Source: Planctomycetales bacterium (GTDB lineage: Bacteria > Planctomycetota > SZUA-567). From it: DNA of 64,000 nucleotides. Positions 7,329-60,000 of this stretch are shown piece by piece (within the stretch, counting starts at the first letter, position 1; each line of letters starts with the position of its first letter). The stretch is from assembly GCA_025997475.1 (NCBI GenBank), contig BNUQ01000006.1:29872-93871 (forward strand). The letters are read 5' to 3'. The position numbers and the translations under genes were made by a program. The notes beneath the pieces were generated by a model. The model saw only the letters and a program-made list of their open reading frames with translations. It ran no database searches and had not been told where the DNA came from.

Positions 7329-8339
7329 ATGAATCATTGGCGTTTCGGGCGCACCGGCTTGTCGGTGTCAACTTCGGGGATTGGTTGCATTCCCATTCAG
7401 CGGATTACGTTTGCCGAGTCGACGCGACTGTTGCAAGCGGCGGCGGATAACGGCATCAACTTTTTCGACACCGCGCGCGTTTACACCACCAGCGAAGAGC
7501 GCCTCGGCGTCGCGTTCAACGACCGCCGCGCGGCGATTTTTATCGCGACCAAAACGATGGCGCGCGACCGCGTCGGCATTATCGCCGACCTTGAAACCTC
7601 GCTGAAAAATTTGCAAACCGATTACGTTGACATCTATCAATTGCATAATCCGCCGTCGGTCCCGCGCCCCGGCGATGAAATGTATGACACGTTAATCGAC
7701 CTCAAAGCGGCGGGGAAAATCCGTTTTCTCGGCATCACGCAACACGATTTGACGCTGGCGCGGGAAGCCGTTGTCGGCGGAAATTACGACACGTTGCAAT
7801 ATCCGCTGAGCGTGTTGGCGTCCGACGACGAATTGACTTTGCCCGCGCTGTGCGCGCGCCACGATGTCGGCTTGCTCGCGATGAAAGCGATGGCGGGCGG
7901 CTTGCTCGACGACGCGAAATTGGCGTTCACTTTTTTGCGGCGGCAGTTCGCCAACGTCGTGCCGATTTGGGGTGTTCAGCGCGAAACGGAACTCGCGGAA
8001 TTTTTAGCGTTGGAAAAAGACCCGCCGGAGTATTCGGCGGCGTTGGCGGAGCGGGCGCGCCGGTATCGCGCGGAACTCGCCGGTTCGTTTTGCCGCGCTT
8101 GCGGCTACTGTCTGCCGTGTCCGGTCGGGATTCCGATTCCGACGGCGGCGCGAATGTCGCTGTTGTTGCGGCGAATGGTGGCGGAAAATTTTCTCACGTC
8201 CGAATGGCGCGAAAAAATGGCGCTCATCAAGGATTGCCGTCACTGCGGTCAATGCTCGTCGCGCTGTCCGTATCACCTTGACACGCCGGCGCTGTTGGCG
8301 AGCGAATGGGAAAAATATCAAACCGCGATTAGCAATTAA
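7329..8339 (+). CDS. Aldo/keto reductase with C-terminal 4Fe-4S domain
   Basis: 336 residues from the ATG at 7329. The first 250 residues form an aldo-keto reductase barrel: the N-terminal RTGLSVSTSGIGC strand, the NFFDTARVYTTSEERLG catalytic segment with Asp and Tyr, and TDYVDIYQLHNP. The C-terminal 80 residues hold two cysteine clusters, CRACGYCLPCPVG and CRHCGQCSSRCPYHLDTP, the pattern of two 4Fe-4S clusters. The combination is common in anaerobes and probably allows electron transfer between an iron-sulfur partner and a carbonyl substrate. The substrate is unknown. The last residues (AISN) run into the repeat element that follows. Confidence 0.9.
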   Translation: MNHWRFGRTGLSVSTSGIGCIPIQRITFAESTRLLQAAADNGINFFDTARVYTTSEERLGVAFNDRRAAIFIATKTMARDRVGIIADLETSLKNLQTDYVDIYQLHNPPSVPRPGDEMYDTLIDLKAAGKIRFLGITQHDLTLAREAVVGGNYDTLQYPLSVLASDDELTLPALCARHDVGLLAMKAMAGGLLDDAKLAFTFLRRQFANVVPIWGVQRETELAEFLALEKDPPEYSAALAERARRYRAELAGSFCRACGYCLPCPVGIPIPTAARMSLLLRRMVAENFLTSEWREKMALIKDCRHCGQCSSRCPYHLDTPALLASEWEKYQTAISN

Positions 8340-8441
8340 CAATTAACCATTAAAAGTTATGGAATTTAATTTGCAAATTCGCGAAGCGAAATTTGTAATC
8401 AATTCCTCGATTTTTAATTTTTAATTGTTAATTGTTAATTG
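8332..8441. repeat. Heptad-arm palindrome, AATTAAC type
   Basis: The left arm has 7-bp units of the ATTAACA type and the right arm has the complementary TTAATTG units. Between them lies TTCGCGAAGCGAA. This is one member of the family described in the findings, here between the aldo-keto reductase and parB genes. Confidence 0.75.
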
Positions 8442-8457
8442 CTCTTCGGGTGTAACG

Positions 8458-9363
8458 ATGAGCAGAGAGGCGTTAGGCAAGGGCTTAAAGGGGATGTTAG
8501 GCGTCGCGTCGCCGACCGCGCCAGTCGTGCCCGTCGCGCCCGTCGCGACGGCGCTGTCCGTGCCGCTCAACCAAATTGCCGCGTCGCCGTTTCAGCCGCG
8601 GCAGGTTTTTGACGAGACCAAATTGGCGGAATTGGCGGAATCCATCGGCGAACTCGGCTTGGTGCAACCGCTCGTCGTGCGCCGGTTGGACGCGACGCAT
8701 TATCAATTGGTTGCGGGCGAGCGGCGGCTACGCGCGTTGACGATGCTCGGCTGGCAGGACGCGCCGGTAACGATTTGCAACGCGCCGGAAGACACGTTGC
8801 GGGAAACGGCGTTGGTCGAAAATCTGCAACGGGAAAATCTGAACGCCATCGAAACGGCGGAGGCGCTGAAAGAATTGAGCGACAACACCGACCTCACGCA
8901 CGAAAAAATCGCGGCGCGTCTCGGCAAAAGCCGCGTCTGGATTACGAACACGCTCCGTTTGTTAAATCTGCCGCGCGAGGTCTGCCGGTTGATTGCCGGC
9001 GACGAAATTTCCGGCGCGCACGGGCGGACGTTGCTCGGTTTAGCCGACCCGGTGTCGCAATTGAAATTGGCGAAGCGCGTCGTCGCGGAACAAATTCCGG
9101 TGCAAAAATTAGAAAAAATCGTGCAGGAAATGACGGGCGGCAAACGCCCGAAAAAGCGCGACGCCAACGACGACAGCAACGCGGCGCCGGTCGCGCCGGT
9201 CGGCAAAAATCGCCATTTATTGGATTTGGAACAACGGCTGGGCGTTCGGCTCGGCGCGCAAGTCCGCATCCTCGACGAGCGCGGCGCGGGAAAAATCGAA
9301 ATCACCTACGGCTCCTACGACGACATCGCCGGAATTTTGGAGCGGTTGGGAATGAGCGAGTAA
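8458..9363 (+). CDS. parB: ParB/Spo0J-like chromosome partition protein
   Basis: 301 residues from the ATG at 8458; this start gives the classic opening MSREALGKGLKGML. The N-terminal CTP-binding ParB domain contains SPFQPRQVFDETKLAELA and the GERRLRA motif. It is followed by a helix-turn-helix (LTHEKIAARLGKSRVWITN) and a C-terminal dimerization domain. The protein binds parS sites and acts with the ParA ATPase in chromosome segregation. ParA is usually immediately upstream, but here the upstream neighbour is the aldo-keto reductase, separated by a repeat. The partner gene must therefore lie outside this window. Confidence 0.93.
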   Translation: MSREALGKGLKGMLGVASPTAPVVPVAPVATALSVPLNQIAASPFQPRQVFDETKLAELAESIGELGLVQPLVVRRLDATHYQLVAGERRLRALTMLGWQDAPVTICNAPEDTLRETALVENLQRENLNAIETAEALKELSDNTDLTHEKIAARLGKSRVWITNTLRLLNLPREVCRLIAGDEISGAHGRTLLGLADPVSQLKLAKRVVAEQIPVQKLEKIVQEMTGGKRPKKRDANDDSNAAPVAPVGKNRHLLDLEQRLGVRLGAQVRILDERGAGKIEITYGSYDDIAGILERLGMSE

Positions 9364-9378
9364 AAGGGGAAAAGGGGT

Positions 9379-9505
9379 TAAGAGAGCAGAGTTGAAAGTT
9401 TAGAGTTTAGAGTTGAGCAGTGGTCGCGCTTCGCGCGTCTTAAAAATAAAACGCCACGCTCTTAACTCTAAACTTTTAACTCTCAACTCTCAACTCTCAA
9501 CTTCC
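9379..9505. repeat. Heptad-arm palindrome, AGAGTTG type
   Basis: The left arm (AGAGTTGAAAGTTTAGAGTT) and the right arm (AACTCTAAACTTTTAACTCT) are complementary and follow a 7-bp period. The centre reads GCGCTTCGCGC followed by TTAAAAATAAAA. It separates parB from pilC. Confidence 0.75.
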
Positions 9506-9569
9506 CCGTTGACCGCCATTTACGATAAAGCAAAATGCCACCCACGCCAAACTAAAAAGGGGATACATA

Positions 9570-10835
9570 ATGCCAAACTTTTTCTACACCGCCATCGACG
9601 CCAAAGGCAACGAAAAAAGCGGAAAAATCGAAGCGGGCGACGCGCAAAAAGCCCGCGAAGAATTGCAGTCGCGCGGAATGTATCCCAAATCCATTTCGCA
9701 AAAACAAGAAAAAAAGAAAGTCGCCACCGACGACGTTGACGCTTCGCACAAGCGCACCAACACCCTGCTCGCCGGCAAGGTCAAAGGCAAGGAACTCACC
9801 TTGTTCACGCGGCAACTCGCCACACTCCTCGAAGCCGGTATGCCGCTGTTGCGCTCGCTCGATATTCTGTCGCAAATGTTGCGCGGCGGCGTGATGCGCA
9901 ACTCGGTGTTGGACATTAGCGACGAGGTGCAGGGCGGCGCCAGTTTGTCCAACGCGATGTCGCACAAGCCGAAGGTCTTTGACACGCTTTACAGCAGTAT
10001 GATCAAGGCGGGCGAGGCGTCCGGTCAGTTGGGGCGGATTTTGAGCCGCTTGGCGGACTTGCGCGAAAAGACCGAAAAATTGGTGCGCAAAGTTATCGGC
10101 GCGTTGGTTTATCCGGCGGCCATCACCGTCATCGCGGTGTTGATTCTGACCGGCATTATGCTGTTCGTCATCCCGAAATTCAAAGAGATGTTTTCGCAGT
10201 TGGGCGTGGATTTGCCGGGTCCGACGGTATTGCTGTTGCGCATCACCGATGAAATGACCTATCTGTATTTCGGCGTCATTCCGGCGGCGGTCGTTTATCT
10301 GCTATTTTTCCCGTTCGTGCTTTATACTATCTGGCGCGTTGTGCGCTCGTTCCCGCCGGGCAAAACGCTGACCGATATGGCCATTTTGAAGTTGCCGATT
10401 TTCGGGCTGATTATCCGTAAATCGTCGTTGTCGCGTTGTTGCCGGACGCTGGGCGAGTTGGACGCCGCCGGCGTGCCGGTGTTGGAATCGCTGGCGATTA
10501 TCAAGGACGCGCTGGGGAACACCGTCATTCGCGCCGCGGTCAACGACGTGTATGTCGGCATTCGCGAGGGCGAAAATATGTCCACGACGATGCGGAGGAA
10601 CAAGCAATTCGATTTGATGACGGTGAATATGGTCGCCGTCGGCGAAGAGACCGGTGAACTCGACAAAATGTTAATTCGCGTGGCGGACAATTTCGACGAC
10701 GAGGTCAACGTGCTGGTCGAAAGTATGATGAGTTTGTTGGAGCCGGCGCTGATTGTGATGATGGGCGGCGCGGTCGGCTTTATCGTTATCTCACTGTTTA
10801 TGCCGCTGATTTCAATTATTTCGGCGCTGTCGTGA
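9570..10835 (+). CDS. pilC: Type IV pilus inner-membrane platform protein PilC
   Basis: 421 residues, the normal length. Two T2SSF domains are visible: the first from about residue 75 (LTLFTRQLATLLEAGMPLL) and the second from about 285 (RCCRTLGELDAAGVPVLESL). Each is followed by hydrophobic segments (GALVYPAAITVIAVLILTG; the final PALIVMMGGAVGFIVISLFM). The N-terminal FFYTAIDAKGNEKSGKIEA is characteristic. PilC couples the PilB motor to pilin assembly in the inner membrane. Its usual partner pilB is found 21 kb away at 31380-33083, so the pilus genes are dispersed. The GspF proteins of type II secretion are homologous; the PilC assignment rests on the N-terminal region and on the PilB found in the window. 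Confidence 0.9.
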   Translation: MPNFFYTAIDAKGNEKSGKIEAGDAQKAREELQSRGMYPKSISQKQEKKKVATDDVDASHKRTNTLLAGKVKGKELTLFTRQLATLLEAGMPLLRSLDILSQMLRGGVMRNSVLDISDEVQGGASLSNAMSHKPKVFDTLYSSMIKAGEASGQLGRILSRLADLREKTEKLVRKVIGALVYPAAITVIAVLILTGIMLFVIPKFKEMFSQLGVDLPGPTVLLLRITDEMTYLYFGVIPAAVVYLLFFPFVLYTIWRVVRSFPPGKTLTDMAILKLPIFGLIIRKSSLSRCCRTLGELDAAGVPVLESLAIIKDALGNTVIRAAVNDVYVGIREGENMSTTMRRNKQFDLMTVNMVAVGEETGELDKMLIRVADNFDDEVNVLVESMMSLLEPALIVMMGGAVGFIVISLFMPLISIISALS

Positions 10836-10837
10836 GA

Positions 10838-10926
10838 GCGCAGAGTTGAGAGTTGAAAGTTTAGAGTTGAGGGGAGAGCCGCCTAAATTTTCAACTTTTA
10901 ACTTTCAACTTTTAACTTTTTACTTT
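10838..10926. repeat. Heptad-arm palindrome, AGAGTTG type, without core
   Basis: Arms of AGAGTTGAGAGTTGAAAG and its complement flank only GGGGAGAGCCGCC. The CGAAGC core of the other copies is missing. Confidence 0.65.
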
Positions 10927-10941
10927 CGCGATAAGCCCCCA

Positions 10942-13124: not shown

Positions 13125-13153
13125 GCGTCATCGGGGCAATGCCGGTCTATACT

Positions 13154-13243
13154 CATTACGAATTGGTTTGCGGAAAAGTCATTTGCGTAAATACGCAACG
13201 GTTCGCGTTTCGGTAAAATAAACCCGCAAACCAATTCGTAATG
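13154..13243. repeat. Perfect 20-bp inverted repeat upstream of hicB
   Basis: CATTACGAATTGGTTTGCGG at 13154-13173 is repeated exactly in inverted orientation at 13224-13243. A smaller palindrome (TTGCGTAAATACGCAA) lies between the arms. It could be the ends of a small insertion, or the promoter/operator region of the toxin-antitoxin pair that follows. Confidence 0.8.
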
Positions 13244-13277
13244 ATTCTATTGAAGTTTTCGCCGTTGAGGAACGCCG

Positions 13278-49161: not shown

Positions 49162-49214
49162 AAGAGAATCCTCCTATTTTCCGAAATGGTTAATTTTTAA
49201 TAGACCGAGCGGAA

Positions 49215-49325
49215 GAACAATTAACAATTAACAATTAAGAATGGTGGAGTTTTGATGATTAAAATCGCTTCGCGAATCTTAAAAATCAAACTCCGAAATT
49301 CTTAATTTTTCATTCTTAATTCTTC
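49215..49325. repeat. Heptad-arm palindrome, AATTAAC type, with core
   Basis: Left arm AACAATTAACAATTAACAAT, inner GGTGGAGTTTTGAT, core AATCGCTTCGCGAAT (reversed orientation), inner AATCAAACTCC, and right arm TTAATTTTTCATTCTTAATT. The right arm provides the last codons of coaC (see there). Confidence 0.85.
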
Positions 49326-49865
49326 ATTGACAATAAAGTCGGCTAACCGCCGCACAATATCGATTGGTTCCGCCATCCGCCCGACGGCGTTGACGCCGCA
49401 CGCCAACCGCCCGACGGTCGGCTCGATAACTTCCACGCCGCGCGCGCGTAACGTCGCCAAATTTTCCCGCGTCGCCGGATGTTCCCACATTTTGTTGTTC
49501 ATTGCCGGCGCGACGACGAGCGGCGCGGACGCGGCAAGCAAGGTCGAAGTCAACAAGTTGTCGGCGAGCCCGCGCGCGAGTTTCGCCAGCGTGTTCGCCG
49601 TCGCGGGAGCGAGAATAAACAGGTCGGCACGGTCGGCAAGCGAAATGTGCCGCGGGTTACTGCTAAACGGCGCGAACTGGTCGAGATGCACGTCATGGCG
49701 GCTTAACGTGGCGAACGTCAGCGGCGCGACAAACTGCGTCGCCGCCGCCGTCATTATCACTTCGACGGTCGCGCGTTCCTTCGTCAACAGCGAGGTCAAC
49801 TCCGCCGCCTTGTAAGCCGCGATGCCGCCGGTAACGCCGAGAATAATGTGCTTGCCGTTTAACAT
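49302..49865 (-). CDS. coaC: Phosphopantothenoylcysteine decarboxylase (stand-alone CoaC flavoprotein)
   Basis: 187 residues of the flavin-dependent decarboxylase family: GVTGGIAAYKAAELTSLLTK, the active-site His in RHISLADRADLFILAPATANT, the PAMNNKMWEHPAT motif and the Cys loop GRLACGVNAVGRM are all present. Most bacteria fuse this to the CoaB synthetase; here the frame ends after the CoaC domain. The last eight residues (NEELRMKN) are encoded by the repeat arm that follows, so the element may have replaced a CoaB half or only the natural end. CoaB is not in the window. Confidence 0.9.
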   Translation of the reverse strand: MLNGKHIILGVTGGIAAYKAAELTSLLTKERATVEVIMTAAATQFVAPLTFATLSRHDVHLDQFAPFSSNPRHISLADRADLFILAPATANTLAKLARGLADNLLTSTLLAASAPLVVAPAMNNKMWEHPATRENLATLRARGVEVIEPTVGRLACGVNAVGRMAEPIDIVRRLADFIVNEELRMKN

Positions 49866-49874
49866 TTTTTGTTC

Positions 49875-49917
49875 GCCGAAATTGTTAATTTTTAATTGTT
49901 AATTGTTAATTGTTCTT
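49875..49917. repeat. Half element, TTAATTG-type arm only
   Basis: Tandem AATTGTTAATT units without core or opposite arm, between coaC and plsC. The end of plsC (HRKNN) is read from its edge. Confidence 0.6.
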
Positions 49918-50568
49918 GCGGTGCGGCGGAATGCCGCATAAGTCCGCGATGCGGCGCATCATTGTCCGCGAAAGTTCTTGGCATAACGCCAAGCGTTCGG
50001 CACGATTGGCGCCGTGATAGCGGCGGCTTAATTCCGCCGTCGCGACAGGTTCGCCGCAGTGCAATTCCACCACCCGCGCGCAACGCGGACGCGCGTCCAA
50101 CGGAAAAACCGTCGCCGTGCCGCGCAGTCCGCACGGAAAAACCGGCGCGCCGCTTTCGAGCGCCAACCACGCCGCGCCCGGACGGGCTAACCGCAAATGC
50201 CGCCCTTGATTGAGATGGCCTTCGGGGAAAATCGTTGCGATTTCGCCGCGCCGCAAATACCCCAACGCCAATTGCAACGCCGCCGGCGCGTTTTTCCGGT
50301 CTAACGGAATGGCTTGCGCCGTCCGCAAAAACCAGCCGAGAAGCGGATGCGCGAACGGGTCGGCGATGACGAGCGGATGCGGCGGGGTCCGCGTTTTCAT
50401 TATCAATTCCGCGCACAGCAACGCGCCGTCCATTAAACTGTTGTGATTGCAAACGACGACGCCCGCCTGTCCGGTCGCCGGCAAATGCTCCTTGCCCACG
50501 ACCGCGCGCACGACCGCGCGGCTCGCCAAATAACAACCGCAAGTCGCAAGGGATAGGGATTTGAACAT
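49906..50568 (-). CDS. plsC: 1-acyl-glycerol-3-phosphate acyltransferase (PlsC-like)
   Basis: 220 residues. The acyltransferase motifs are NHNSLMD (NHx4D, residues 42-48) and the substrate-binding FPEGH with Gly-Arg downstream. RTAQAIPLDRKN lies between them as in the family. It adds an acyl chain in phospholipid synthesis on the inner membrane. One hydrophobic stretch near the N-terminus may anchor it. The stop lies in a half repeat element. Confidence 0.87.
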   Translation of the reverse strand: MFKSLSLATCGCYLASRAVVRAVVGKEHLPATGQAGVVVCNHNSLMDGALLCAELIMKTRTPPHPLVIADPFAHPLLGWFLRTAQAIPLDRKNAPAALQLALGYLRRGEIATIFPEGHLNQGRHLRLARPGAAWLALESGAPVFPCGLRGTATVFPLDARPRCARVVELHCGEPVATAELSRRYHGANRAERLALCQELSRTMMRRIADLCGIPPHRKNN

Positions 50569-50692
50569 ATTTTTTTCCTGAAATTTTTAATTTGCCCAGC
50601 AATAATCCCGTCTTTATTGACTCCCGCAAGGCGGTAACCGGCGCACATCTTTTTTGTCGGCGCGTTCGCGATACACTTGCCCGCCGTTAGAG

Positions 50693-50820
50693 AATTACAA
50701 ATTAAAAATTACAAATTCAAAATGGCGGATTGGACTTAAACATTGCGCGAAGCGATTTTGATAATCAAACTCCACAATTTTTAATTTTTAATTGTTAGTT
50801 GTTAATTGTTAATTGAAACC
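50693..50820. repeat. Heptad-arm palindrome, ATTACAA/AATTAAC type, with core
   Basis: Left arm of ATTACAAATTAAAAATTACA, core TTGCGCGAAGCGATTTTG, inner ATCAAACTCCAC and right arm TTTTTAATTGTTAGTTGTTA. The two arms differ slightly in their units (CAA on the left, GTT on the right), so the pairing is partly degenerate. Confidence 0.8.
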
Positions 50821-50831
50821 GCCCCTAATCT

Positions 50832-51818
50832 ATGCCTTATCAATCGCTCATTCCGGTCGTGGACAAATTCGCCGCCGCGCGCGCGTTGGTCGTCGGCGAC
50901 GCGATGCTTGACCATTACGTCGTCGGCAAAGTCGAACGCATTTCGCCCGAAGCGCCGGTGCCGATTTTGCGCGTCTGCGAGGAGTTTGACCGCGTGGGCG
51001 GCGCCGCCAACGTCGCGGCGAACATCACGGAACTCGGCGCCCGCGCCGTGTTGGTCGCGCTCGCCGGCGGACGGGAAACGCTCGACGCCACCGGCGACGC
51101 CCTGCGGCAACGCTGTGAAATTCGCCGCGTGCAAGCCGATTTAATTCTCGCGCTTGACCACACCGTTCGTAAATCGCGGATGCTCGCCGGACCGCAACAG
51201 ATGTTGCGCGTCGATTGGGAAGCGCCGGTCGCCTTGACGGCGGCGACGCGGGCGCGGCGCGCCGAATTGTTGGCGCGACACCTGCCGGATTGCGACATCG
51301 TGCTGGTCAGCGATTACGCCAAAGGAATGGTCGATGCGGAATTGTTGGCGCAACTTTACGCCAGCGGCAAGCCCGTGGTCATCGACCCGCGCCCGCAACA
51401 CTGTTCGCTTTATCGCGGCGCGACGATGCTCACGCCCAATCGCAAAGAAGCGCTGGCAATGCTCAATCCCGACGGCGAAATTACCGACGAGGATTTGGGA
51501 CAACGCCTCGGCGAAAAACTGAACGCCAACATTTTGCTGACGCTTAGCGAGAACGGAATGTGCCTGTGCGAGCGCGGAATGACGCCGCTGAAAATTCCGA
51601 CGCGGGCGCGGGAGGTCTTTGACGTAACCGGCGCCGGGGACACGGTCGCGGCGACGCTGGCGGCGGCGTTCGCCGCCGGTTGTTCGTGGCGCGAGGCGAC
51701 CTATCTCGCCAACGCCGCCGCCGGCATTGTGGTCGGACACGTCGGCGCGGCGGCGGTTGCCCCGGCGCAATTGCAGGCGGCGATGTTGAAAGTCGAGAGT
51801 TCAGCGTTGAAAATTTAG
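50832..51818 (+). CDS. rfaE1: D-glycero-beta-D-manno-heptose-7-phosphate kinase
   Basis: 328 residues with the ribokinase-type fold: VGDAMLDHYVVGKVERISPE (family-specific opening), GGAANVAANITELGAR, and the anion hole VFDVTGAGDTVAATLAA near residue 265, with catalytic Asp. It lacks the C-terminal nucleotidyltransferase half of E. coli HldE, so a separate RfaE2/HldC must exist. It makes the heptose precursor of LPS inner core. The final residues (KVESSALKI) read through an AGAGTTG-type repeat arm. It is 15 bases before fic. Confidence 0.93.
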   Translation: MPYQSLIPVVDKFAAARALVVGDAMLDHYVVGKVERISPEAPVPILRVCEEFDRVGGAANVAANITELGARAVLVALAGGRETLDATGDALRQRCEIRRVQADLILALDHTVRKSRMLAGPQQMLRVDWEAPVALTAATRARRAELLARHLPDCDIVLVSDYAKGMVDAELLAQLYASGKPVVIDPRPQHCSLYRGATMLTPNRKEALAMLNPDGEITDEDLGQRLGEKLNANILLTLSENGMCLCERGMTPLKIPTRAREVFDVTGAGDTVAATLAAAFAAGCSWREATYLANAAAGIVVGHVGAAAVAPAQLQAAMLKVESSALKI

Positions 51819-51833
51819 CGGTCGCGTAAAAAA

Positions 51834-52691
51834 ATGAGGATGGCGATGAAAGAAAACGACGCGAAATCTAAATCCGAAAAATACTATTCGGTGTCGGCGT
51901 GTTGGTATGAGCAAATCGACGAAATTTACGCACAATTGGAACGAGTAAGCGCGGCGCAAATCCCCGATATTTTGCGTTTGCGAAAACTGACGCGGATTAT
52001 GTCCGTTCACTCCTCCACCGCGATTGAAGGCAACGCGCTAACGCTGGGACAAGTCGCCGCCGTGGTCAACGGTAAGAAAGTCGCCGGTTTGCCGAATGAT
52101 ATTAAAGAGGTGCAAAATGCGTGGCAGGCGTATGGTGAAGTCGGCGCTTACAATCCTTGGTCGGTGGCGGATTTGTTAAAAGCCCACGCGCTGATGACTG
52201 CCGGTTTAGTCGAAGAGGCGGGCGCGTTTCGCGCGGTGAATGTTTCGGTGGTGGACGACAGGGGCGAGGTCTTGCATCGCGGCTCGCCGCCGGAAATTGT
52301 CGCGGAAGCGGTCGGCGAACTTTTGGCGTGGGGCAAAGACGCCAACGCGCATCCGCTCGTCAAGAGTTCGGCGGTTCATTGCGTTTTGGAACACATTCAT
52401 CCTTTTCGCGACGGCAACGGGCGTGTCGGGCGGTTGTGGCAGTCGGCGATTTTGACGCAATGGAATCCGTTGTTTGCGTATTTGCCGATAGAGCGGGCGG
52501 TTCACGACCATCAAGAACGCTACTATTTGGCGTTGTTAGAATCGCAACGCGGCGAAAGCGTGAACGCAAGTCCCTTCATTGGTTTTATGTTGGACGCGAT
52601 AAGTAATTCGTTGGACAAATTTATGATGGTGGCGGCGGTCGATGAAATAGATTCAACTCTCTCCTCAAAACGCGCGGTAAAAAATGGCTGA
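51834..52691 (+). CDS. fic: Fic-domain AMP-transferase with N-terminal inhibitory helix
   Basis: 285 residues. The Fic motif HPFRDGNGRVGR near residue 190 is complete. The inhibitory motif is present at residues 61-66 (STAIEG, the (S/T)xxxE(G/N) form), so it belongs to class II and carries its own brake in the same chain. Such enzymes AMPylate target proteins. Some regulate DNA gyrase or chaperones, others act as toxins. The target here is unknown. The stop overlaps the lepB start by eight bases, so the two are coupled. Confidence 0.93.
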   Translation: MRMAMKENDAKSKSEKYYSVSACWYEQIDEIYAQLERVSAAQIPDILRLRKLTRIMSVHSSTAIEGNALTLGQVAAVVNGKKVAGLPNDIKEVQNAWQAYGEVGAYNPWSVADLLKAHALMTAGLVEEAGAFRAVNVSVVDDRGEVLHRGSPPEIVAEAVGELLAWGKDANAHPLVKSSAVHCVLEHIHPFRDGNGRVGRLWQSAILTQWNPLFAYLPIERAVHDHQERYYLALLESQRGESVNASPFIGFMLDAISNSLDKFMMVAAVDEIDSTLSSKRAVKNG

Positions 52692-54120
52692 AACCCATCC
52701 TCCGACCGGCAACTTTTGGACGGCGACCGGCAAACAACTGTTGCCGCTCATCGCGCTGGTCGTCGGCATTAAATTTTTTGTCGCCGACATTTACGGCATC
52801 CCGACCGGCAGTATGGAGCCGACGCTCCATGGGCGCGAACATTCCGGCGACCGCATTTTTTGCGCCAAAGTAAATTATTATTTCCGCACGCCGCGCCGCT
52901 GGGAGGTCTTCGTCTTCAAATTTCCTTACGAAGAATCCCGCGACTACACCAATCAGGACACGGCGATTTATCGCGGCGAATACTTTATCAAACGGTGCGT
53001 CGGCTTGCCGGGCGAGGAGGTCTTTATCGCCGGCGGCGATATTTTCACGCGGCGCGGCAACGCAACGCCCCGCCGTCAGGTCAAAGACGACGCCACGCAA
53101 CGCCCGCTGTGGCTACCGGTGTATGACGAGGATTTTCGCGACTTGCGCTCGTCCGCCGAAATGGCGCATTATTGGAGCGCGGGGGAGGAGACGCGGGGAA
53201 ACGCGGGGGACGGCGATTTTTCCGCCGCGCGCTTGACCGGACATTCCTTGCAAATCGACGGCGCGCTGACGCTGACGTTTCGCCCGCGCACGCATCTCGG
53301 CGTCCTCGCCGGCGTTCCCGACCGCTACGTGCGGCGGCAATATGTAACCTATCAATGCCCGCGGTGCGGCGCGACGCGGCGGCAAACGGTAACGACGCCG
53401 AAATTCGCCGACCGGTGCGGGTGTCGGCAATATCTCACCGAAGACGACGTGCGCTATTACGATTTTCGCACCGATTATCCGCCGCGCGAAATCGCGAGTT
53501 TGCGCGAGGTCAGCCAAATCGCCGACCCGTCGCCGCGCCTCGACGACTGGCATTATGTCGCCGATTTGCGCGAGGAAATCACTTTCAAGTTTGCCGCGGG
53601 CGGCGCGCTATCCCTCGTCATCGCCGACGATTGGCGCGAGGCGACGGCGGAATTTACGCCGAACAATTCCGGCGGTAAGGTGCGACTAATCGTCAACGGG
53701 AAAGAATACGCCAATGTCGGCGCGGCGTTGCCGCCGCACGCGACGGCGGCGTTGGAGTTTTACCGGTGCGACGGCGAGTATCGCGCGTTCGTCAACGGTG
53801 AGATGGTCTTTTCGGTCGCGCCGGACGGACACGAATTGAATCGGTCGCAAAACCGCGAAATCGAACGCTCGTCGGTGCAAGTTCGCGTCCGCGGCGGCGG
53901 CGAAATCAGCCGCTTGGCAATCGGGCGGGATATTCATTACTTCAACGTTTCGCCGCTCACTTCGTCCTACCGTTTGCCGGCGGACGGCTATATGGCGTTG
54001 GGCGACAACAGCCCGTCGTCGAACGACTCGCGCAACTGGGGACCGGTGCCGCAGAAAAATTTAGTCGGTCCGGCGCTGGCGGTGTGGTGGCCCCTCGACG
54101 CGGCGCGGGCGATTCATTAA
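52684..54120 (+). CDS. lepB: Signal peptidase I with a large insert and zinc-ribbon-like motif
   Basis: 478 residues, far larger than typical LepB. The membrane anchor is LLPLIALVVGIKFFVA. The catalytic Ser 43 is in PTGSMEPTL and the Lys 103 in EYFIKRCVGLPGEEVF. The C-terminal GDNSPSSNDSRNWGPVP closes the fold. Between the Lys box and that motif lie about 310 extra residues. They include CPRCGATRRQ paired with CGCRQ (a zinc-ribbon-like set) and a jelly-roll-like stretch with EYANVGAALPPHATAALEFY. Large inserts like this are typical of PVC bacteria. It removes signal peptides in the inner membrane. It is coupled to fic upstream. Confidence 0.92.
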   Translation: MAETHPPTGNFWTATGKQLLPLIALVVGIKFFVADIYGIPTGSMEPTLHGREHSGDRIFCAKVNYYFRTPRRWEVFVFKFPYEESRDYTNQDTAIYRGEYFIKRCVGLPGEEVFIAGGDIFTRRGNATPRRQVKDDATQRPLWLPVYDEDFRDLRSSAEMAHYWSAGEETRGNAGDGDFSAARLTGHSLQIDGALTLTFRPRTHLGVLAGVPDRYVRRQYVTYQCPRCGATRRQTVTTPKFADRCGCRQYLTEDDVRYYDFRTDYPPREIASLREVSQIADPSPRLDDWHYVADLREEITFKFAAGGALSLVIADDWREATAEFTPNNSGGKVRLIVNGKEYANVGAALPPHATAALEFYRCDGEYRAFVNGEMVFSVAPDGHELNRSQNREIERSSVQVRVRGGGEISRLAIGRDIHYFNVSPLTSSYRLPADGYMALGDNSPSSNDSRNWGPVPQKNLVGPALAVWWPLDAARAIH

Positions 54121-54238
54121 AGGGCTGTCCTACGATAAAAGGACAACCTCCGGCAAAGTTTTTATCCGCCGCTTTTATATCATTAACGACTTACCAATTA
54201 CCCGACCTGATTAAGCGTATTTTGGGGAAACCGGTCTA

Positions 54239-54757
54239 ATGCGCCGTTTTTTATTTATCGCCATAATCATATCGACTTTGACTGGTTGCGCCGAATTAAC
54301 CGCGCCGCCCCCGATTTCGACCATTGCGACCGGCGCGCCGACCGCGGCGTTTAGCGACTGGGCGGGCGCGGCGGAAATTATTTTTGCCAAAGTCAACGAA
54401 TTGCGGCAAAAACAAGGCGTGGCGCCGCTCCAAAAAGACGAGCGGCTACAACAAATCGCGACGGCGTATGCGCGGGAGTTGGCGGCGCGCGGCGAATTGT
54501 CGCACTTCGACCGCGACCGGAAAACGTTAGCCGACCGGCTGAAAAGCGCGGAGATTAACGACTGGCGGGCGGCGGGCGAAAATCTGGCGCGCCTCGGTTG
54601 CGACGGTTTCGTCGCGGCGGACGTGGTTAAAAGTTGGAATTTATCCAAAGCGCACAACGACGCGATGACGGACAAAATTTATCGCCGCTCCGGTCTCGGT
54701 TACGCCGTCGATGCCGCCCGCGCCAACGTTTATTGGGTGCAGGTTTTCGCGGATTAA
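54239..54757 (+). CDS. CAP/SCP-domain lipoprotein
   Basis: 172 residues. A lipoprotein signal peptide ends in LTGC (Cys 17), so it is a substrate of the LspA encoded in the window. The CAP domain shows IIFAKVNELRQKQGVAPL, GELSHFDRDRKTLADRL, AAGENLARLG and the late SWNLSKAHNDAMTDKIYRRS, then GLGYAVDA. The family includes secreted proteins that bind sterols or act on cell walls; bacterial members are often extracytoplasmic and of unknown role. No partner is adjacent. Confidence 0.9.
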   Translation: MRRFLFIAIIISTLTGCAELTAPPPISTIATGAPTAAFSDWAGAAEIIFAKVNELRQKQGVAPLQKDERLQQIATAYARELAARGELSHFDRDRKTLADRLKSAEINDWRAAGENLARLGCDGFVAADVVKSWNLSKAHNDAMTDKIYRRSGLGYAVDAARANVYWVQVFAD

Positions 54758-54835
54758 AAATTCGGCGACTAAATTTAGAACGGTTCGGAAAATGCTAAAA
54801 GAAAGAAGCGGATTTTGCCCGCGATTCGGTGCAAG

Positions 54836-54974
54836 TTCCATTCAATTGCCACGCGCTTTAGCGCGTGGTTAGCGTAAAAAAATGACCGGCTTTAGCCGAA
54901 TGGTTTATTTGGGCTAAAGCCCTTTCTTTTTTAACCGTCCACCACGCCCTAAAGGGCGTGGCAATTGAATAGAG
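54836..54974. repeat. REP-like palindrome with TTCAATTGCC ends
   Basis: Ends CATTCAATTGCCACGCG and CGTGGCAATTGAATAGAG, interior CGGCTTTAGCCG and GGGCTAAAGCCC. The left arm's inner hairpin is GCGCTTTAGCGC instead of the CCTTTTAAGG of other copies. Confidence 0.88.
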
Positions 54975-54995
54975 CAATTTGGCAATCATTCTAAA

Positions 54996-56219
54996 TCACA
55001 AATTCTCAATCAGCGCGGTGGCGAATTCACTGCATTTCAATTTCGTCGCGCCGGGCATCAGCCGCTCGAAATCGTAAGTAACCCGCTTCTGTTCAATGGT
55101 TTTGCCGAGGGCCTTGACGAGCAAGTCCGCCGCTTCGTTCCAGCCCATATAGGTCAGCATCATTTCGCCGGACAAAATGACCGACGACGGATTGACCATA
55201 TCTTTGCCGGCGTATTTCGGCGCCGTGCCGTGTGTCGCCTCAAAAATGCCGATGCCGGTGTCGTAGTTGATGTTGCCGCCCGGCGCGATACCGATGCCGC
55301 CGACCTGCGCCGCCAGCGCGTCCGAAATGTAGTCGCCGTTCAGGTTCAGCGTCGCGATGACCGAATACTCCGCCGGACGCAATAAAATCTGTTGCAAGAA
55401 AGCGTCGGCAATCACGTCTTTGACGACGATTTCGCGCCCGTCAACGGTTATCGCTTGCCACGGTCCGCCCTGATAGTCGGTCGCGCCGAATTCTTTTTTC
55501 GCGAGCGCGTAGCCCCAGTCGCGGAACGCGCCCTCGGTGTATTTCATAATGTTGCCTTTGTGGACGAGCGTTACATTGGGGAGTTGCCGGTCGATGGCGT
55601 ATTTAATCGCGGCGCGGACGAGGCGCTCGGTGCCGTCGCGCGACACCGGTTTAATGCCGACGCCGGCGGTCGCCGGAAAGCGGATTTTCGCGTAGCGGGG
55701 CGGGAAATTTTCTTGGATAAACGCCAGCAATTTTTCGGTGTCCGGCTCGCCGGCGGCAAATTCGATGCCGGCGTAAATGTCTTCGGTGTTTTCGCGGAAG
55801 ATGACCATATCGACTTTTTCCGGCGCTTTGACCGGCGTCGGCACACCGGCGAAATACTTGACCGGTCGCAGGCAAACATACAGGTCAAGCAATTGCCGCA
55901 ACGCGACGTTAATCGAGCGAATCCCGCCGCCGACGGGCGTGGTCAGCGGTCCTTTGAGACCGACTAAATACTCGCGAAACGCCGCGACGGTCGCGTCGGG
56001 GAGCCATTCGCCGGTTTGCTTAAACGCTTTTTCACCGGCTAAAACCTCGCGCCATTCGATTTGCCGCTCGCCGCGATACGCTTTCCGCACCGCCGCGTCA
56101 AGCACACGCACGGACGCCGCCCAAATGTCGGGACCGGTGCCGTCGCCCTCGATAAACGGAATAATCGGATGTTGCGGCACGACCAACTTGCCGTCTGCCA
56201 TTTTAATTTTGTCGCTCAT
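54996..56219 (-). CDS. icd: NADP-dependent isocitrate dehydrogenase
   Basis: 407 residues. The substrate-binding motif [20 protein letters not shown] holds the regulatory Ser. [15 protein letters not shown] and the metal site [20 protein letters not shown] are all present. It oxidises isocitrate to 2-oxoglutarate, feeding amino-acid synthesis, including the arginine path through ArgB. The AGGAG-like site GAGGAGCGCGTT precedes the ATG. It stands alone, with a REP-like element downstream and two other repeats upstream. Confidence 0.96.
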
Positions 56220-56235
56220 AACGCGCTCCTCGCCA

Positions 56236-56320
56236 ATTAAGAATTAACAATTAACAATTAACAATTAACAATTAACAATTAACAATTAACAATTAAAAAT
56301 TGTGGAGTTTGATTTTTAAA
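56236..56320. repeat. Half element, long AACAATT heptad run
   Basis: Nine or ten tandem AACAATT units (56239-56300), then GTGGAGTTTGATTTTTAA, with no right half. It is the cleanest 7-bp run in the window. Confidence 0.85.
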
Positions 56321-56362
56321 AACGAAAGGGCGGATTTTAACCTCGTCCGCCGCCATTGCAAT

Positions 56363-56472
56363 TAGAGAGCAGAGTTTAGAGTTGAGAGTTTGACCGCGGT
56401 TGCGCTTCGCGCGTCTTAAAAATAAAAACTCCACTCTCTAAACTCTAAACTTTCAACTCTCAACTCTAAACC
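56363..56472. repeat. Heptad-arm palindrome, AGAGTTG type, with core
   Basis: Left arm AGAGTTTAGAGTTGAGAGTT, core GCGCTTCGCGCGTCTTAAAA, inner AAACTCCACTC, and right arm AACTCTAAACTTTCAACTCT. It lies 13 bases before the TatD fusion gene. Confidence 0.85.
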
Positions 56473-56483
56473 AAGGAACCCCG

Positions 56484-57863
56484 ATGTCCGCTTTTTTTGA
56501 CTCGCACTGTCATCTGCAAGACGAGCGTTTCGACGCCGACCGCGACGCGGTGGTCGAGCGGGCGGGCGCGATGCGGATGTTGGTCGTCGGCTCCGATTTG
56601 CCGTCGTCGCGGCGCGGCGCCGAACTGACGTTGCAATATAAAAACATCTATGCCGCCGTCGGCGTTCACCCGACCGAGACCGAAACCTTCGGCGACGCCG
56701 ACCTCGCCGCGCTGAAAGAACTTGCCGCCGAATTTCCGCGCGTCGTCGCCGTCGGCGAAACCGGTTTGGATTATCATCACGAACCGTTTGATGCCGCGAC
56801 GCAACGCCGCGCGTTTTTGGCGCATTTGGCGTTGGCGCGGGAATTAAATTTGCCGGTCGTGTTACACGCCCGCGACGCGGCGGCGGAGGTCTTGGACTTG
56901 GTCGCGCCGTTTATGCAAAGCGGCGGACGCGCGGTTTGGCACTGTTATTCCGCGCCGAAAAAACAACTGCCCGCACTGACGGCGCGGGCGCTCTCGCTGA
57001 ATTTATATCTCGGCATTAGCGCGATGATTACTTACGAAGAGCAACGCGCCTTGCGCGAGCAAATCAAACAAATTCCCGACCGGCATTTATTGCTCGACAC
57101 CGACTCGCCGTATTTATTACCGCGTCCGCGCGTCGCCGACCGCAACGAACCGGCGAACTGCCGCCGACTGGCGGAGGCGCTCGCCGAAATTCGCGGCGTA
57201 ACGGTCGCCGACATCGCGCGCATTACGACGCGCAACGCCGAGGAATTTTTGGGGTTGGAGACGCCCGCCGCGCCGTCCGTGGTCTATCCGATTCGCGACG
57301 CGCTCTACGTCAATCTCACCGCGCGGTGCAACAACGCCTGCGTTTTTTGCGCGCGCAACCGGAGTTACACGGTCAAGGGGCATAACCTTGCGCTGGCGAG
57401 CGAACCGACGACGGCGGAAGTTATTGCGGCCATCGGCGACGGCGGCGATTATCGCGAAATCGTTTTTTGCGGTTTCGGCGAGCCGACGATGCGCTTGGAC
57501 GAATTAAAACAGGCGGCGCGTTACGCGAAATCCCGCGGCAAGCCGACGCGATTGAACACCAACGGTTTGGCGGATTTGCAATACGGGCGGGAAATCGCGG
57601 CGGAGTTGGTCGGGCTGATTGACGCGGTGAGCATTTCGCTGAACGCGACGACGGCGGCGCAATATCAGGCGCTCTGTCAGAGCAATTTCGGCGAGCGGGC
57701 GTTCGGCGCCTTGCAAGATTTTGCGCGGGCGTGTTTGCGGCGCGGCATGGCGACAACGCTGACGGTGGTCGAAATGCCGAGCCTCGACTTGTCCGCGGCG
57801 AAAAAAATCGCCGACGACATCGGCGCGAATTTCCGCGTCCGCAGTTGCGTGGACGCGGGGTAG
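56484..57863 (+). CDS. TatD-family nuclease fused to a radical SAM domain
   Basis: 459 residues. Residues 1-258 are a TatD metal-dependent hydrolase (FFDSHCHLQDERFD; VAVGETGLDYHHE; LPVVLHARDAA; LLLDTDSPYLLP). From about 270 a radical SAM domain follows, with NLTARCNNACVFCARN (C-x3-C-x2-C) and IVFCGFGEPTMRLDELKQAA. Both halves look intact. Fusions of these two families are known in some bacteria as 'TatD-associated radical SAM protein'. The function of the pair is unknown; the TatD half may act on DNA or another phosphate ester. It stands alone, before lpxK on the opposite strand. Confidence 0.92.
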   Translation: MSAFFDSHCHLQDERFDADRDAVVERAGAMRMLVVGSDLPSSRRGAELTLQYKNIYAAVGVHPTETETFGDADLAALKELAAEFPRVVAVGETGLDYHHEPFDAATQRRAFLAHLALARELNLPVVLHARDAAAEVLDLVAPFMQSGGRAVWHCYSAPKKQLPALTARALSLNLYLGISAMITYEEQRALREQIKQIPDRHLLLDTDSPYLLPRPRVADRNEPANCRRLAEALAEIRGVTVADIARITTRNAEEFLGLETPAAPSVVYPIRDALYVNLTARCNNACVFCARNRSYTVKGHNLALASEPTTAEVIAAIGDGGDYREIVFCGFGEPTMRLDELKQAARYAKSRGKPTRLNTNGLADLQYGREIAAELVGLIDAVSISLNATTAAQYQALCQSNFGERAFGALQDFARACLRRGMATTLTVVEMPSLDLSAAKKIADDIGANFRVRSCVDAG

Positions 57864-57865
57864 AG

Positions 57866-57975
57866 CAATTAACAATTAACAATTGAAAATTAACAATTAA
57901 GAGCAACCGCATTGACCTTACAGTTATGCAAAATACTCTTAATTGTGAATTGTTAATGGTAAATTGTTAATTATC
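57866..57975. repeat. Heptad-arm palindrome, AATTAAC type, atypical core
   Basis: Arms of AACAATTAACAATTGAAAAT and its complement flank GAGCAACCGCATTGACC instead of the usual core. Its right arm gives lpxK the C-terminal residues INNLPLTIHN. Confidence 0.7.
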
Positions 57976-58997
57976 TCTTCCGCCTCGTCCGCCAAACACA
58001 AATCCACGCCTAACGCCGCCACCCGCTCGCGCCATTCCGCGCCGAGTAGCGGCGCTAATTTCACCGCGTCTTTTTCTGTAACCACCGGCAACCACTCGCG
58101 GCTGAACGGCGTTAACCGCGCGATAAAATCCGCGGCGCGATATTGATGATGGTCGGAGAGTTCGACCGTCGCGGCGAGGTCGGCGCCGAGAGTTTTTAGC
58201 GTCGCCGCGAAGCGGTCGGGACGCCCGATGCCGCTGACGGCAATCACTTTTTGCCCGCGCAAAACGGCTAACGGCAACGATTTTTCCGCCAGCGTGGTCA
58301 AGCGCGCCGGTCGGTGTTCGGCGGTCAAAACCGGCATTTGCGGTAGGCGCTCGCGCAGTCGCGTTTGCAGAGCGTCCAATTGCGCGGGCGCCACTTGGTC
58401 GGCGCGGGTCAGCACGATGAGGTAGGCGCGCGCCAGCGCCGCGGGAAATTCCCGCAACATTCCCGCCGGTAGCGGCAAGCCGCCGCCCCACGGACAAGTC
58501 GCGTCCAACAAGACAATGTCCACGTCGCGAAGCAGACGCTGATGTTGAAAACCGTCGTCCAAGACCAGAATGTCCGCGCCGTCCGCGACCGCCGCCGCCG
58601 CGCTCGCGACGCGGTCTTTTTGCGCGTAAATTTTCAGGGCGGGAATTAACCGGCGGTATAACAACGCTTCATCCGCCTGTTCCGGCGCGTCCGCGCCGTA
58701 GCCGCGCAACAACAGCGCCGGCGTCCGTCCGCCCGCGATTAGTTTTTGCAACAGCCACACCGCGAACGGCGTTTTGCCGGTGCCGCCCGCCGTGAGATTG
58801 CCGACGCTGACGACCGGCGCCGCCGCGCGGTAACGCGCATACCAATTGTGTTGATACAGGTAACTGCGCCCCCAGCCGACGAGACCGTATAAATAGCCCG
58901 CGGGCGCGACCGCCGCACGAAGAATTTTGGCGCCGCAACCGCCGCGCCGCCCTTCAAGCCACGCGCGCGCAACGGCGGAAAATGAGGAGTTAAGCAT
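57939..58997 (-). CDS. lpxK: Tetraacyldisaccharide 4'-kinase (lipid A)
   Basis: 352 residues. The N-terminal amphipathic segment is followed by VVSVGNLTAGGTGKTPF (Walker A) and ADILVLDDGFQHQRLLRDVD. The later parts MLREFPAALARAYLIVLTRA and TEKDAVKLAPL are typical. It phosphorylates the lipid A precursor on the inner membrane, so the cell makes lipid A. The last ten residues (INNLPLTIHN) come from the repeat element that overlaps its end. An AGAGTTG-type repeat covers its start region. Confidence 0.94.
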   Translation of the reverse strand: MLNSSFSAVARAWLEGRRGGCGAKILRAAVAPAGYLYGLVGWGRSYLYQHNWYARYRAAAPVVSVGNLTAGGTGKTPFAVWLLQKLIAGGRTPALLLRGYGADAPEQADEALLYRRLIPALKIYAQKDRVASAAAAVADGADILVLDDGFQHQRLLRDVDIVLLDATCPWGGGLPLPAGMLREFPAALARAYLIVLTRADQVAPAQLDALQTRLRERLPQMPVLTAEHRPARLTTLAEKSLPLAVLRGQKVIAVSGIGRPDRFAATLKTLGADLAATVELSDHHQYRAADFIARLTPFSREWLPVVTEKDAVKLAPLLGAEWRERVAALGVDLCLADEAEEIINNLPLTIHN

Positions 58998-59141
58998 AGA
59001 GTTTAGAGTTGAGAGTTGAGAGTTGAAAGTTGAAAGTTGAAAGTTGAAAGTTAAGCGAAGGTTGCGCTTCGCGCATTATTAAAAAATAACTCCACCGCTA
59101 AACTCTAAACTCTAAACTCTTAACTCTCAACTCTAAACTTC
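58998..59141. repeat. Heptad-arm palindrome, AGAGTTG type, with core
   Basis: A long left arm (at least nine 7-bp units such as AGAGTTG and AAAGTTG), core GCGCTTCGCGCATTATTAAA, inner AACTCCACC, right arm CTAAACTCTAAACTCTTAAC. Its right arm supplies the last residues (KFRVES) of the metallophosphoesterase. Confidence 0.85.
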
Positions 59142-59917
59142 CCGCCTGTGGCGGAAAATAAATTCATTTTTCCGCCGAGCGTGATACTGCCGGCGCAGTG
59201 TTGCCGGACGCCGCCCGGCAGGACGGTCGTGAACGGGCGGTGAATGTGTCCGCATAAATAGGCGGCGACTTCGGCGGCGAGTAAATCCAAGACCGCGTCC
59301 CCGCCGTTTAAGCGCGTGGCTTCCGGCAAAAAATTATTGGCGGCGTCGCGCAACGGGAAATGTCCGGCGGCGACGCGCGTTTGCGCCGGAGCGGGCGGCA
59401 ACGCCCGCCACGCCGTTTTTAGTTCGTCCAACGCCGCCGCTTCGCCCCACGCCTGAGCGAGCGGCACCACCCGCGCCCCGTCCACCGGCAATAAATCAAC
59501 GTCGCCGACACGTAGCGGCTTGCCGTCCCAGCGTAAATCCAAACTTAACTCCCGCCGCAACGCCGCAAAATTCTCCGCCGGCGCGGGGTGAAAATAAAAA
59601 TCGTGATTACCGGCGATAAGCAACGTCGGAATCTGGGCGCGGCGGAGCGGCGCCATTTGGTCGAGAAAAAACGCAAAATCGACGGCGCGTCCGCATTGCG
59701 TCAGGTCGCCGGTGATAACCACAAAATCGGCGCGGGCGGCGATAATCGCGGTTAATGCCGCCGCTAAATTTTCGTTGTGCTGTTGCCGCCGCCGCCGCCA
59801 AAACCAATTAGCCAGCGCTAACGCGGAACGCGGACGCCAGTCGCAATGCCGCCGCCACTCGCGCCACGCGAACGGCGCGACTAAATGCAGGTCGGACAGA
59901 TGGGCGAAACGGGACAT
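59120..59917 (-). CDS. Calcineurin-like metallophosphoesterase
   Basis: 265 residues. The metal ligands are FAHLSDLHLVAP, FVVITGDLTQCG, LLIAGNHDFYF, RVAAGHFPLRD and AYLCGHIHRPF, the complete DxH, GDx2, GNHD and GHxH set. The family hydrolyses phosphoesters, cyclic nucleotides or UDP-sugars. The residues around the sites recall LpxH-like and Icc-like enzymes, but the exact substrate is not clear. It is encoded upstream of lpxK on the same strand, separated by a repeat. The C-terminal KFRVES derives from the repeat. Confidence 0.87.
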   Translation of the reverse strand: MSRFAHLSDLHLVAPFAWREWRRHCDWRPRSALALANWFWRRRRQQHNENLAAALTAIIAARADFVVITGDLTQCGRAVDFAFFLDQMAPLRRAQIPTLLIAGNHDFYFHPAPAENFAALRRELSLDLRWDGKPLRVGDVDLLPVDGARVVPLAQAWGEAAALDELKTAWRALPPAPAQTRVAAGHFPLRDAANNFLPEATRLNGGDAVLDLLAAEVAAYLCGHIHRPFTTVLPGGVRQHCAGSITLGGKMNLFSATGGKFRVES

Positions 59918-59932
59918 TGGTTAGACCCCAAT

Positions 59933-60000
59933 GAACAATTAACAATTAAAAATGGCGGAGTTTTGATTGGCAAAGTCGCAAGCGCGATTTGATAAAAGTT
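59933..60000. repeat. Partial heptad-arm element
   Basis: ACAATTAACAATTAAAAATG, GCGGAGTTTTGATTGG and AAGTCGCAAGCGCGATTTG are seen, without the right half. It lies upstream of the metallophosphoesterase gene. Confidence 0.65.

Follow-up and report, generated by a model that had tools for sequence, protein, structure and literature searches.

Inverted pairs of heptad arrays at gene borders of a planctomycete genome, and flipped loops at orthologous sites in a congener

The STRR heptanucleotide repeats of cyanobacteria are seven-base tandem arrays between genes, with which small dispersed repeats are associated; they are known as direct arrays, not as inverted arm pairs. Here we describe inverted pairs of seven-base arrays in a 64,000-nucleotide stretch of a Planctomycetales genome (assembly GCA_025997475.1, contig BNUQ01000006.1, positions 29,872 to 93,871; hereafter the window), where palindromes at gene borders consist of two complementary arms of 7-bp units (heptads) around a loop that often carries a shared core. 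The GGGAATC and GGGGA(T/C)T heptamer repeats of Xanthomonas and Nostoc (Rehm et al., 2015; PMC4692102), as presented in the available portion of that paper, have fixed and variable positions, lie mostly between genes, vary in unit number, and in Xanthomonas include 70 and 75 cases of two close convergent arrays, which are described as inverted repeats. The same portion points to an over-representation of heptameric repeats in many genomes of bacteria and to a lack, at that time, of detailed literature about them. TAACTGA direct repeats are described, in the accessible part of a second report, as intergenic heptamer arrays common to distant phyla (MacGregor, 2015; PMC4679880). A first-pass annotation of the window had listed nine of the palindromes considered here and had read them as swappable arms on one core, with one arm regenerated from the other.

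Architecture of the elements and concordance of their arms

We analyzed the source genome, beginning with a first sample of 464 kb (the window plus four 100 kb stretches), and compared it with a congener that a genome tool places in the same genus. Both assemblies are drafts; misassembly of the loops seems unlikely given the shortness of the elements. The window contained 26 runs (24 merged tracts) of periodic sequence at lag 7, compared to 0–4 at lags 2–29 with multiples of 7 excluded, and the 464 kb sample contained 268 lag-7 tracts compared to 24, 4, and 45 at lags 6, 8, and 9, respectively. One degenerate heptad (approximately ARTTRRN, taken on the better strand) fit 259/268 tracts under a lenient rule, which took the best of 14 frames and required agreement at ≥75% of scored positions.

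The elements share one plan, in which a purine-rich heptad array is followed by a loop or core of ~20–60 bp and then by the complementary heptad array. We distinguished five arm types: A (AATTAAN), B (AGTTKAR, as in AGAGTTG and AGAGTTT), C (AGTYKKT, as in GTAGTCGG), D (GGGAAAA), and E (AATTACG). Polarity was consistent. Among neighboring tracts of opposite orientation ≤110 bp apart, the heptad strand came first and its complement second in 75 cases versus 0 of the reverse in the source genome and in 139 versus 1 in the congener; same-strand neighbors at this distance numbered 10 and 13, respectively. The first-pass annotation proposed to test whether left-arm and right-arm types are always equal, and with few exceptions they were: types agreed in 73/74 pairs of the first sample and, in enlarged samples, in 150/163 hairpins of the source genome (69.6 expected if arms were independent) and 214/229 of the congener (86.4 expected). 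Our hairpin detector needs ~28 bp of 7-periodic sequence per side and misses short arms; it left the window element at 28136 unpaired and scored the congener sites of C1:90716 and C3:72065 (working labels denote loci outside the window) as lacking a tract although both have heptad arms and core. At C2:88269 and C3:98290 in the source genome, one heptad type passes into another in phase, and the transition is mirrored in the opposite arm. Whole C-type elements stand in tandem at ~126–135 bp spacing in C25, C44, C55, and C58 of the source genome, some of them near contig ends.

All nine palindromes listed by the first-pass annotation are real, with 7-bp-periodic arms and a loop containing CGCGAAGCG or CGCTTCGCG in 9/9. 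Its statement that an inner GGAGTTT...AAACTCC pair is mostly present was generous, as this pair is exact on both sides in 3/9 elements (18965/19005, 28170/28222, and 49246/49288), exact on one side in 3/9 (38660, 50767, and 56426), and altered in the other 3/9. The core motif, with one mismatch allowed, occurred in 106/150 concordant A, B, or C hairpins of the source genome compared to 4/750 base-shuffled loops, and in 157/191 A, B, or C hairpins and 1/23 D-type hairpins of the congener, the remaining hairpins having other loops. When folded as single-stranded DNA, 7/8 window elements gave z-scores from −2.9 to −8.5, and the element at 50693–50812 gave −0.8. An Rfam search of the window at the gathering score returned two tRNAs only and no structured-RNA match to the elements. 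GGG is absent from the typical heptads of the A, B, and C types and occurs only in the GGGAAAA type, so the arms of the first three types are not built from G-quadruplex-forming units.

The picture of swappable arms on one core did not hold well in this genus. The motif is common to the A, B, and C cores, which often also have a GGAGTT or AACTCC end; many core ends are themselves inverted repeats (GTGG...CCAC), and core orientation in the source genome is mixed (57 versus 45). For 104/106 cores of the source genome and 153/157 of the congener, however, the closest match was the core of another element with the same type of arm. Core subfamily is thus mostly linked to arm type, the pattern that a few families would give and freely exchanged arms would not, and free swapping on one core is mostly rejected for this genome; the looser picture fits Bacteroides sp. 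519 (see below) better. Chimeras such as the one at C3:73045 in the source genome, where one core lies between a B arm and an A arm, are few.

Flipped loops and turnover at orthologous sites

Long matches of window positions 45,000–64,000 to the congener were 86–97% identical, with the main ones at 92–94%. In the first sample, 97/184 heptad loci mapped with both flanks, of which 70 shared a type with the congener site, 16 had only another type there, and 11 had none. In the enlarged sample, 78/163 hairpins mapped to the congener with a mean flank identity of 95.2%: 55 had a hairpin there, whose type was the same in 45 and different in 10, while 17 had a tract only and 6 no detected tract. Cores of the 45 same-type pairs were ortholog-like in 30 and not ortholog-like in 15. 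Within these 30, the core was forward in 20, inverted in 8, and ambiguous in 2, giving inversion in 8/28 unambiguous pairs. Under a different rule, which required the core to rank in the top three matches of 191 and was passed by 13/33 pairs of a smaller set, 7 were inverted and 6 forward, and a looser count by eye on the first sample gave about nine inverted and about ten forward. These counts come from overlapping sets and differ in their mapping and homology rules; the lowest share is 8/28. Spacer inversion with arms kept, as described for template-switch hairpins, is therefore present under either computed rule (8/28 and 7/13). About a third of cores inverted at ~5% divergence suggests that an element would flip far more often than any single base changes.

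Our preferred explanation, to which we give roughly even chances of being correct, is that several families of elements dispersed through the genome and that their copies then changed in place by template switching and slippage. Each family, marked by a particular arm type and a particular version of a related core, would have spread as a unit across gene junctions, presumably by insertion. A nascent strand that switches template between the inverted arms would invert the loop and at times copy the sequence of one arm into the other, while slippage by multiples of 7 would change and homogenize each arm separately and would account for the free arm length and the retained period. Chiefly because of the inverted cores, we judge template switching with slippage to be the most likely account of local change, one that leaves spread unexplained, and we infer that template switching rather than recombination or a dedicated invertase makes the inversions. 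The hairpin copying proposed in the first-pass annotation gains from these inversions, which are one expected mark of copying across a hairpin. In the available sections of two reports, template switching between short inverted repeats in yeast homogenizes arms and inverts the spacer (PMC8604942), and template switching can create and maintain hairpins, with loop inversions, as in rRNA hairpins (PMC8794818).

Joint change of the two arms is a further expectation of the first-pass annotation's proposal that one arm is regenerated from the other. Within genomes, heptad variants were shared between an element's own arms more than between random same-type arms for A and B in the source genome and for A in the congener. 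Across species, changes of heptad subtype in the left arm went with those in the right arm when every same-type pair was included (A, n = 22; B, n = 20; p about 0.005 each), but this full-set correlation fails to separate rewriting in place from replacement of whole elements, which also gives co-change. When only pairs with a homologous core were considered, B gave a modest signal (n = 14, p = 0.033, rho = 0.63), and pairs with another core gave p = 0.002 for A (n = 8) and p = 0.19 for B (n = 6). The B signal comes from four sites at which both arms shifted alike (C1:92442, C4:89574, C4:95539, and C12:11189), and at C4:95539 and C12:11189 the loops rank first or second among the loops of the congener; judged by eye, both arms at C1:81471 also shifted the same way around a homologous core. 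These comparisons lend modest support to rewriting in place of B-type elements with the core kept and, more generally, weakly suggest that both arms can change while the core stays.

Several observations weigh against this explanation. A-type pairs with a homologous core showed no joint arm change (n = 14, p = 0.34), so that for A the joint change tracks replacement and the full-set signal is due mostly to replaced elements. B-type elements of the congener showed no within-type sharing of heptad variants between own arms (p = 0.73). Arm lengths showed no correlation (rho −0.13 to 0.12), and an arm found its best match in its own partner in only 4/36, 4/36, 1/58, and 1/58 elements, so that slippage must blur any remaking of arms by template switching. 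AAAGTT-type units were fewer in the source genome than in the congener at 0/20 B sites in either arm, a one-way subtype shift that a purely local process does not predict. The spacer inversions in the available parts of the published work involve short spacers and 2–5 bp substitutions, compared to loops of ~20–60 bp here. Finally, a clean empty orthologous site with a target duplication was not found among the 6/78 mapped sites without a detected tract; at these six congener sites, two had heptad arms and core, one a heptad-like remnant, and three unrelated sequence, chiefly repeats of other kinds. In view of the homologous-core test, joint arm change is not strong proof of copying, and exact hairpin re-templating in every copy, the strict form of the earlier proposal, was not seen.

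Turnover of whole elements is what would be expected of non-autonomous mobile palindromes like miniature inverted-repeat transposable elements or REPINs, in which families with different arms are spread by a transposase and a site changes by loss followed by new insertion in either orientation. This alternative, which we consider unlikely though by no means negligible, agrees with the tracking of arm type by core subfamily, with the 10/55 sites at which the congener hairpin is of another type and the 15 more of the same type with another core, and with joint arm change being clearest where the core was replaced (A type). It also agrees with the 27 turned-over loci of the first sample, 16 of which hold another type, near the 56% of gaps ≥60 bp that hold some heptad tract and thus as independent turnover gives; a special mechanism of arm swapping at single sites is not needed. 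A weak common outer end, GCTCTT, was present at 18/326 ends compared to 0/326 control windows in one set and at 35/458 compared to 3 in another, whereas GTTCTT was not enriched, and copies of an AGTTGAG-armed Bacteroides element at unrelated sites in two genomes are nearly identical. Mobility alone does not readily explain, however, why inverted cores that rank in the top three of 191 matches sit between flanks and arms that are in place, or why the loop at 57862–57972, which is not of the family, is also inverted, and no target duplication was seen at the 6/78 tract-less sites.

A RAYT-like mover, also suggested by the first-pass annotation, is rejected in its simple form. PF01797 (Y1_Tnp, RAYT) matches numbered two in the source genome and one in the congener, and the palindromes that flank these three genes, among them GGCTTTAGCC and GCCCTGCAAGGGC, are different from the heptad elements; one of the genes, with its own repeats, lies between A-type arrays. 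PF01797 matches occurred in 16/31 genomes searched and the C-type core pattern in 2/31; among 10 other genomes with heptad hairpins, several of them draft assemblies, 4 had no PF01797 match. REP-like palindromes around GGGCTTTAGCCC occur at window positions 29270–29352 and 54874–54935 and at L049:6134–7400. In L049, a palindrome of the GGGCTTTAGCCC kind flanks a Y1_Tnp (RAYT-like) gene whose element, with ends TTACGCGG...CGCGTAAC, lies between A-type arrays.

Inverted loops could also arise from genome-wide invertible switches, in which a site-specific recombinase would act like a promoter invertase, recognizing the ends of the core or the inner heptads of the arms and flipping the core. Such switches would leave the arms in place, as seen here, and the inverted-repeat core ends and the mixed core orientation of the source genome accord with them. 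Each of the A, B, and C types has different core ends, however, and inversion of the loop at 57862–57972, which has no family core, is as expected of flipping guided by the arms; we regard a dedicated recombinase as improbable.

A function-driven account, in which hairpins are selected as transcription terminators, RNA-stability elements, or translation-stop elements and compensatory selection keeps their arms paired, seems highly improbable to us. Position is in its favor, as 89/92 hairpins lie between genes and 70/356 gene stops fall inside a heptad tract, with stops in all three frames in 202/324 tracts on the purine strand compared to 133/324 on the other strand. The number of hairpins per gap ≥60 bp nevertheless did not depend on gene direction (60/179 co-directional, 15/45 divergent, and 14/44 convergent gaps), and per base the convergent gaps hold about half as many, the opposite of what terminators would give. 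In addition, 23/78 mapped sites had no complete hairpin detected in the congener, and selection would not invert loops. A terminator role was rejected for lack of an excess between convergent genes, as scored with a home-made open-reading-frame caller whose start positions are unreliable. With stops in all frames, the elements may do no harm at the ends of genes, and the stops could be one source of the polarity; this is a correlation that depends on the same gene caller.

Elements and other repeats of the window

The window contains complete hairpins of three arm types. Near its start, an A-type (AATTAAC) hairpin with core occupies 8323–8449 (CGCGAAGCG at 8380; fold z-score −6.0) and is followed by a B-type (AGAGTTG) hairpin with core at 9377–9510 (CGCTTCGCG at 9427; z-score −6.4) and a B-type hairpin without core at 10834–10929, with 20 nt between its arms. 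The A-type (AATTAAC) hairpin at 18926–19042 has a full core, with CGCGAAGCG at 18984 between GGAGTTT at 18965 and AAACTCC at 19005, and the detector called a putative B-type hairpin at its mapped congener site. At 26928–27047, the loop of an A-type (AATTAAG) hairpin is not a core, and the mapped A-type site of the congener has one. The single C-type hairpin described here (GTAGTCGG, with heptads AGTTGGT and AGTCGGT) has a full core at 28136–28262, folds with a z-score of −8.5, and was found via the core pattern, not by the pair detector.

In the second half of the window, the A-type (AATTACA/AATTAAA) hairpin with core at 38582–38697 corresponds in the congener to no more than a short AATTACG array, and the A-type (AATTAAC-like) hairpin with full core at 49210–49329 maps to a B-type hairpin whose flanks diverge beside the element. 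Core orientation is unchanged in the congener for the A-type (AATTAAC-like) hairpin at 50690–50820, which folds weakly (z-score −0.8), and for the B-type (AGAGTTG) hairpin at 56363–56473. The A-type hairpin at 57862–57972, whose loop lacks the family core, has its loop inverted in the congener with both arms and flanks kept. In the B-type (AGAGTTG) hairpin with core at 58990–59142, the congener has other repeat sequence inserted in the core; other repeats also lie inside heptad-hairpin cores at the congener orthologs of C1:83915 and C4:54826, and some of these inserts have TTACGCG/CGCGTAAC ends.

Partial elements are present as well. Partner arms were not detected for a B-type arm beside CGCTTCGCG at 21597–21636 or for a core motif with a right A-type arm at 37446–37519. 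A lone right A-type arm at 49877–49920 corresponds to a complete hairpin with core in the congener. Likewise, no right arm was detected for a long left A-type arm of ~ten heptads at 56230–56306, followed by GTGGAGTTT, or for a left A-type arm with GGCGGAGTTT at 59926–59970.

Three other features of the window stand apart from the heptad elements. A different repeat type with CGCGAAGCG palindromes and GCCGTTAGGCGGC occupies 33530–33600, and similar sequence occurs inside inserts of the congener. At 13148–13249, a 26-bp near-perfect inverted repeat has 50 bases between its arms and no heptads. One reading frame at 56484–57863 has Pfam matches to TatD DNase and to a radical SAM domain and looks like an unusual fusion.

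Distribution beyond the genus and comparison with known systems

A degenerate triple heptad was found in 37/294 genomes of the phylum, in very large numbers only in the two genomes studied here, although a reversed-pattern control was also high, and thus not clean, as AATTAA-like heptads read almost the same backwards. Next after these two came another genome of the phylum (G186) with 219 triple-heptad matches, of which the ones listed are AATTAAG- or AATTAAT-like. A scan of a species collection for AGAGTTG-armed hairpins returned at least 115 stretches. Among the 80 listed, 9 were from the congener and 71 from others, which by their record titles include Bacteroidota, Clostridiales, Chloroflexi, Gemmatimonadota, Acidobacteria, Verrucomicrobia, Alphaproteobacteria, Calditrichaceae, Parcubacteria, and more. 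GCTTCGC, present in this genus, occurred in 2/71 of these loops, both from Clostridiales, and was absent from the others; two Clostridiales loops (L141 and L180) contain GCTTCGCTCC, like some loops of this genus. Away from the match by which they were selected, the same 71 loci (495,576 bp) held 119 lag-7 tracts compared to 2–35 at the other lags from 4 to 15 with multiples of 7 excluded, and their inverted pairs, often with quite different heptads, numbered 22 with the polarity described above and 1 with the reverse; this census concerns genomes chosen for having AGAGTTG hairpins. A hairpin of this plan lay on one viral contig only, and a viral source of the elements was rejected.

In Bacteroides sp. 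519, a 12-bp core occurred 187 times, and at 30 loci the arms around it fell into six or more families, some of them with units of 9 or 10 bases (AGGTAAAGT and CACAGAGTT; L232, L238, L246, L247, and L253), so that the period need not be seven. The 30 loci were picked by the exact 12-bp core, whose constancy is thus by selection, and the variety of arms is the result. At these loci, 27/30 arm pairs aligned with a score of at least 15 and the own partner was the best match in 6/30. The same core occurred 17 times in Bacteroides sp. 224, 15 times with AGTTGAG-like arms, and the matches listed in a BLAST comparison of the 30 and 17 loci were mostly the repeats themselves, with two flank matches at 74–75%.

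This distribution invites a broader account, namely that such palindromes form a class found widely in bacteria whose period stays at seven while the letters drift, and in which an active process steps by seven and rewrites both arms, possibly toward a heptad preferred genome-wide. The one-way subtype shift between the two species could reflect such a preference, and a process stepping in sevens, whether enzymatic or a special mode of replication, would be new; we consider this account very doubtful.

Of the described systems, the elements resemble the Xanthomonas heptamers in their 7-nt period, their inverted convergent pairs, and their intergenic position. As far as the available portion of that paper extends (PMC4692102), it studies the repeats as quadruplexes, describes no core, arm-type concordance, core inversion, or joint arm change, and places few of them between divergent genes, unlike the elements here. 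The statement of the first-pass annotation that the element type is unnamed was accordingly mostly right, with the qualification that inverted pairs of heptamer arrays had been reported in Xanthomonas. From what is accessible of the corresponding reports, the TAACTGA repeats are direct, whereas the arrays here are inverted pairs (PMC4679880); the REPIN/RAYT system shares dispersed intergenic palindromic hairpins and tandem clusters of whole elements (PMC3116915), but here RAYT-like genes are flanked by other palindromes and the heptad arms are not REP (repetitive extragenic palindromic) sequences; and the constant-size, variable-sequence tandem repeats of Bacillus share a fixed period and species-specific sequences, with periods of 20–21 and 52 nt (PMC8161180). 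Our literature search, outside of which most subscription journals fell, listed nothing else alike in architecture and no report of core inversion in such repeats.

As far as could be seen, then, the kind of element is known in part, and inverted pairs as a class across phyla and flipping loops appear to be new. The orientation of the core in repeats like these says little about phylogeny. With many copies per genome and loops of opposite orientation in two species ~5% apart, this genus opens hairpin copying and the origin of the seven-base period to sequence comparison. Judged by the available parts of the template-switch reports (PMC8604942 and PMC8794818), the elements share arm homogenization and inversion of the spacer or loop with those mutations, which were described there for unrelated short inverted repeats and rRNA stems and are seen here in many copies of dispersed elements with loops of ~20–60 bp.

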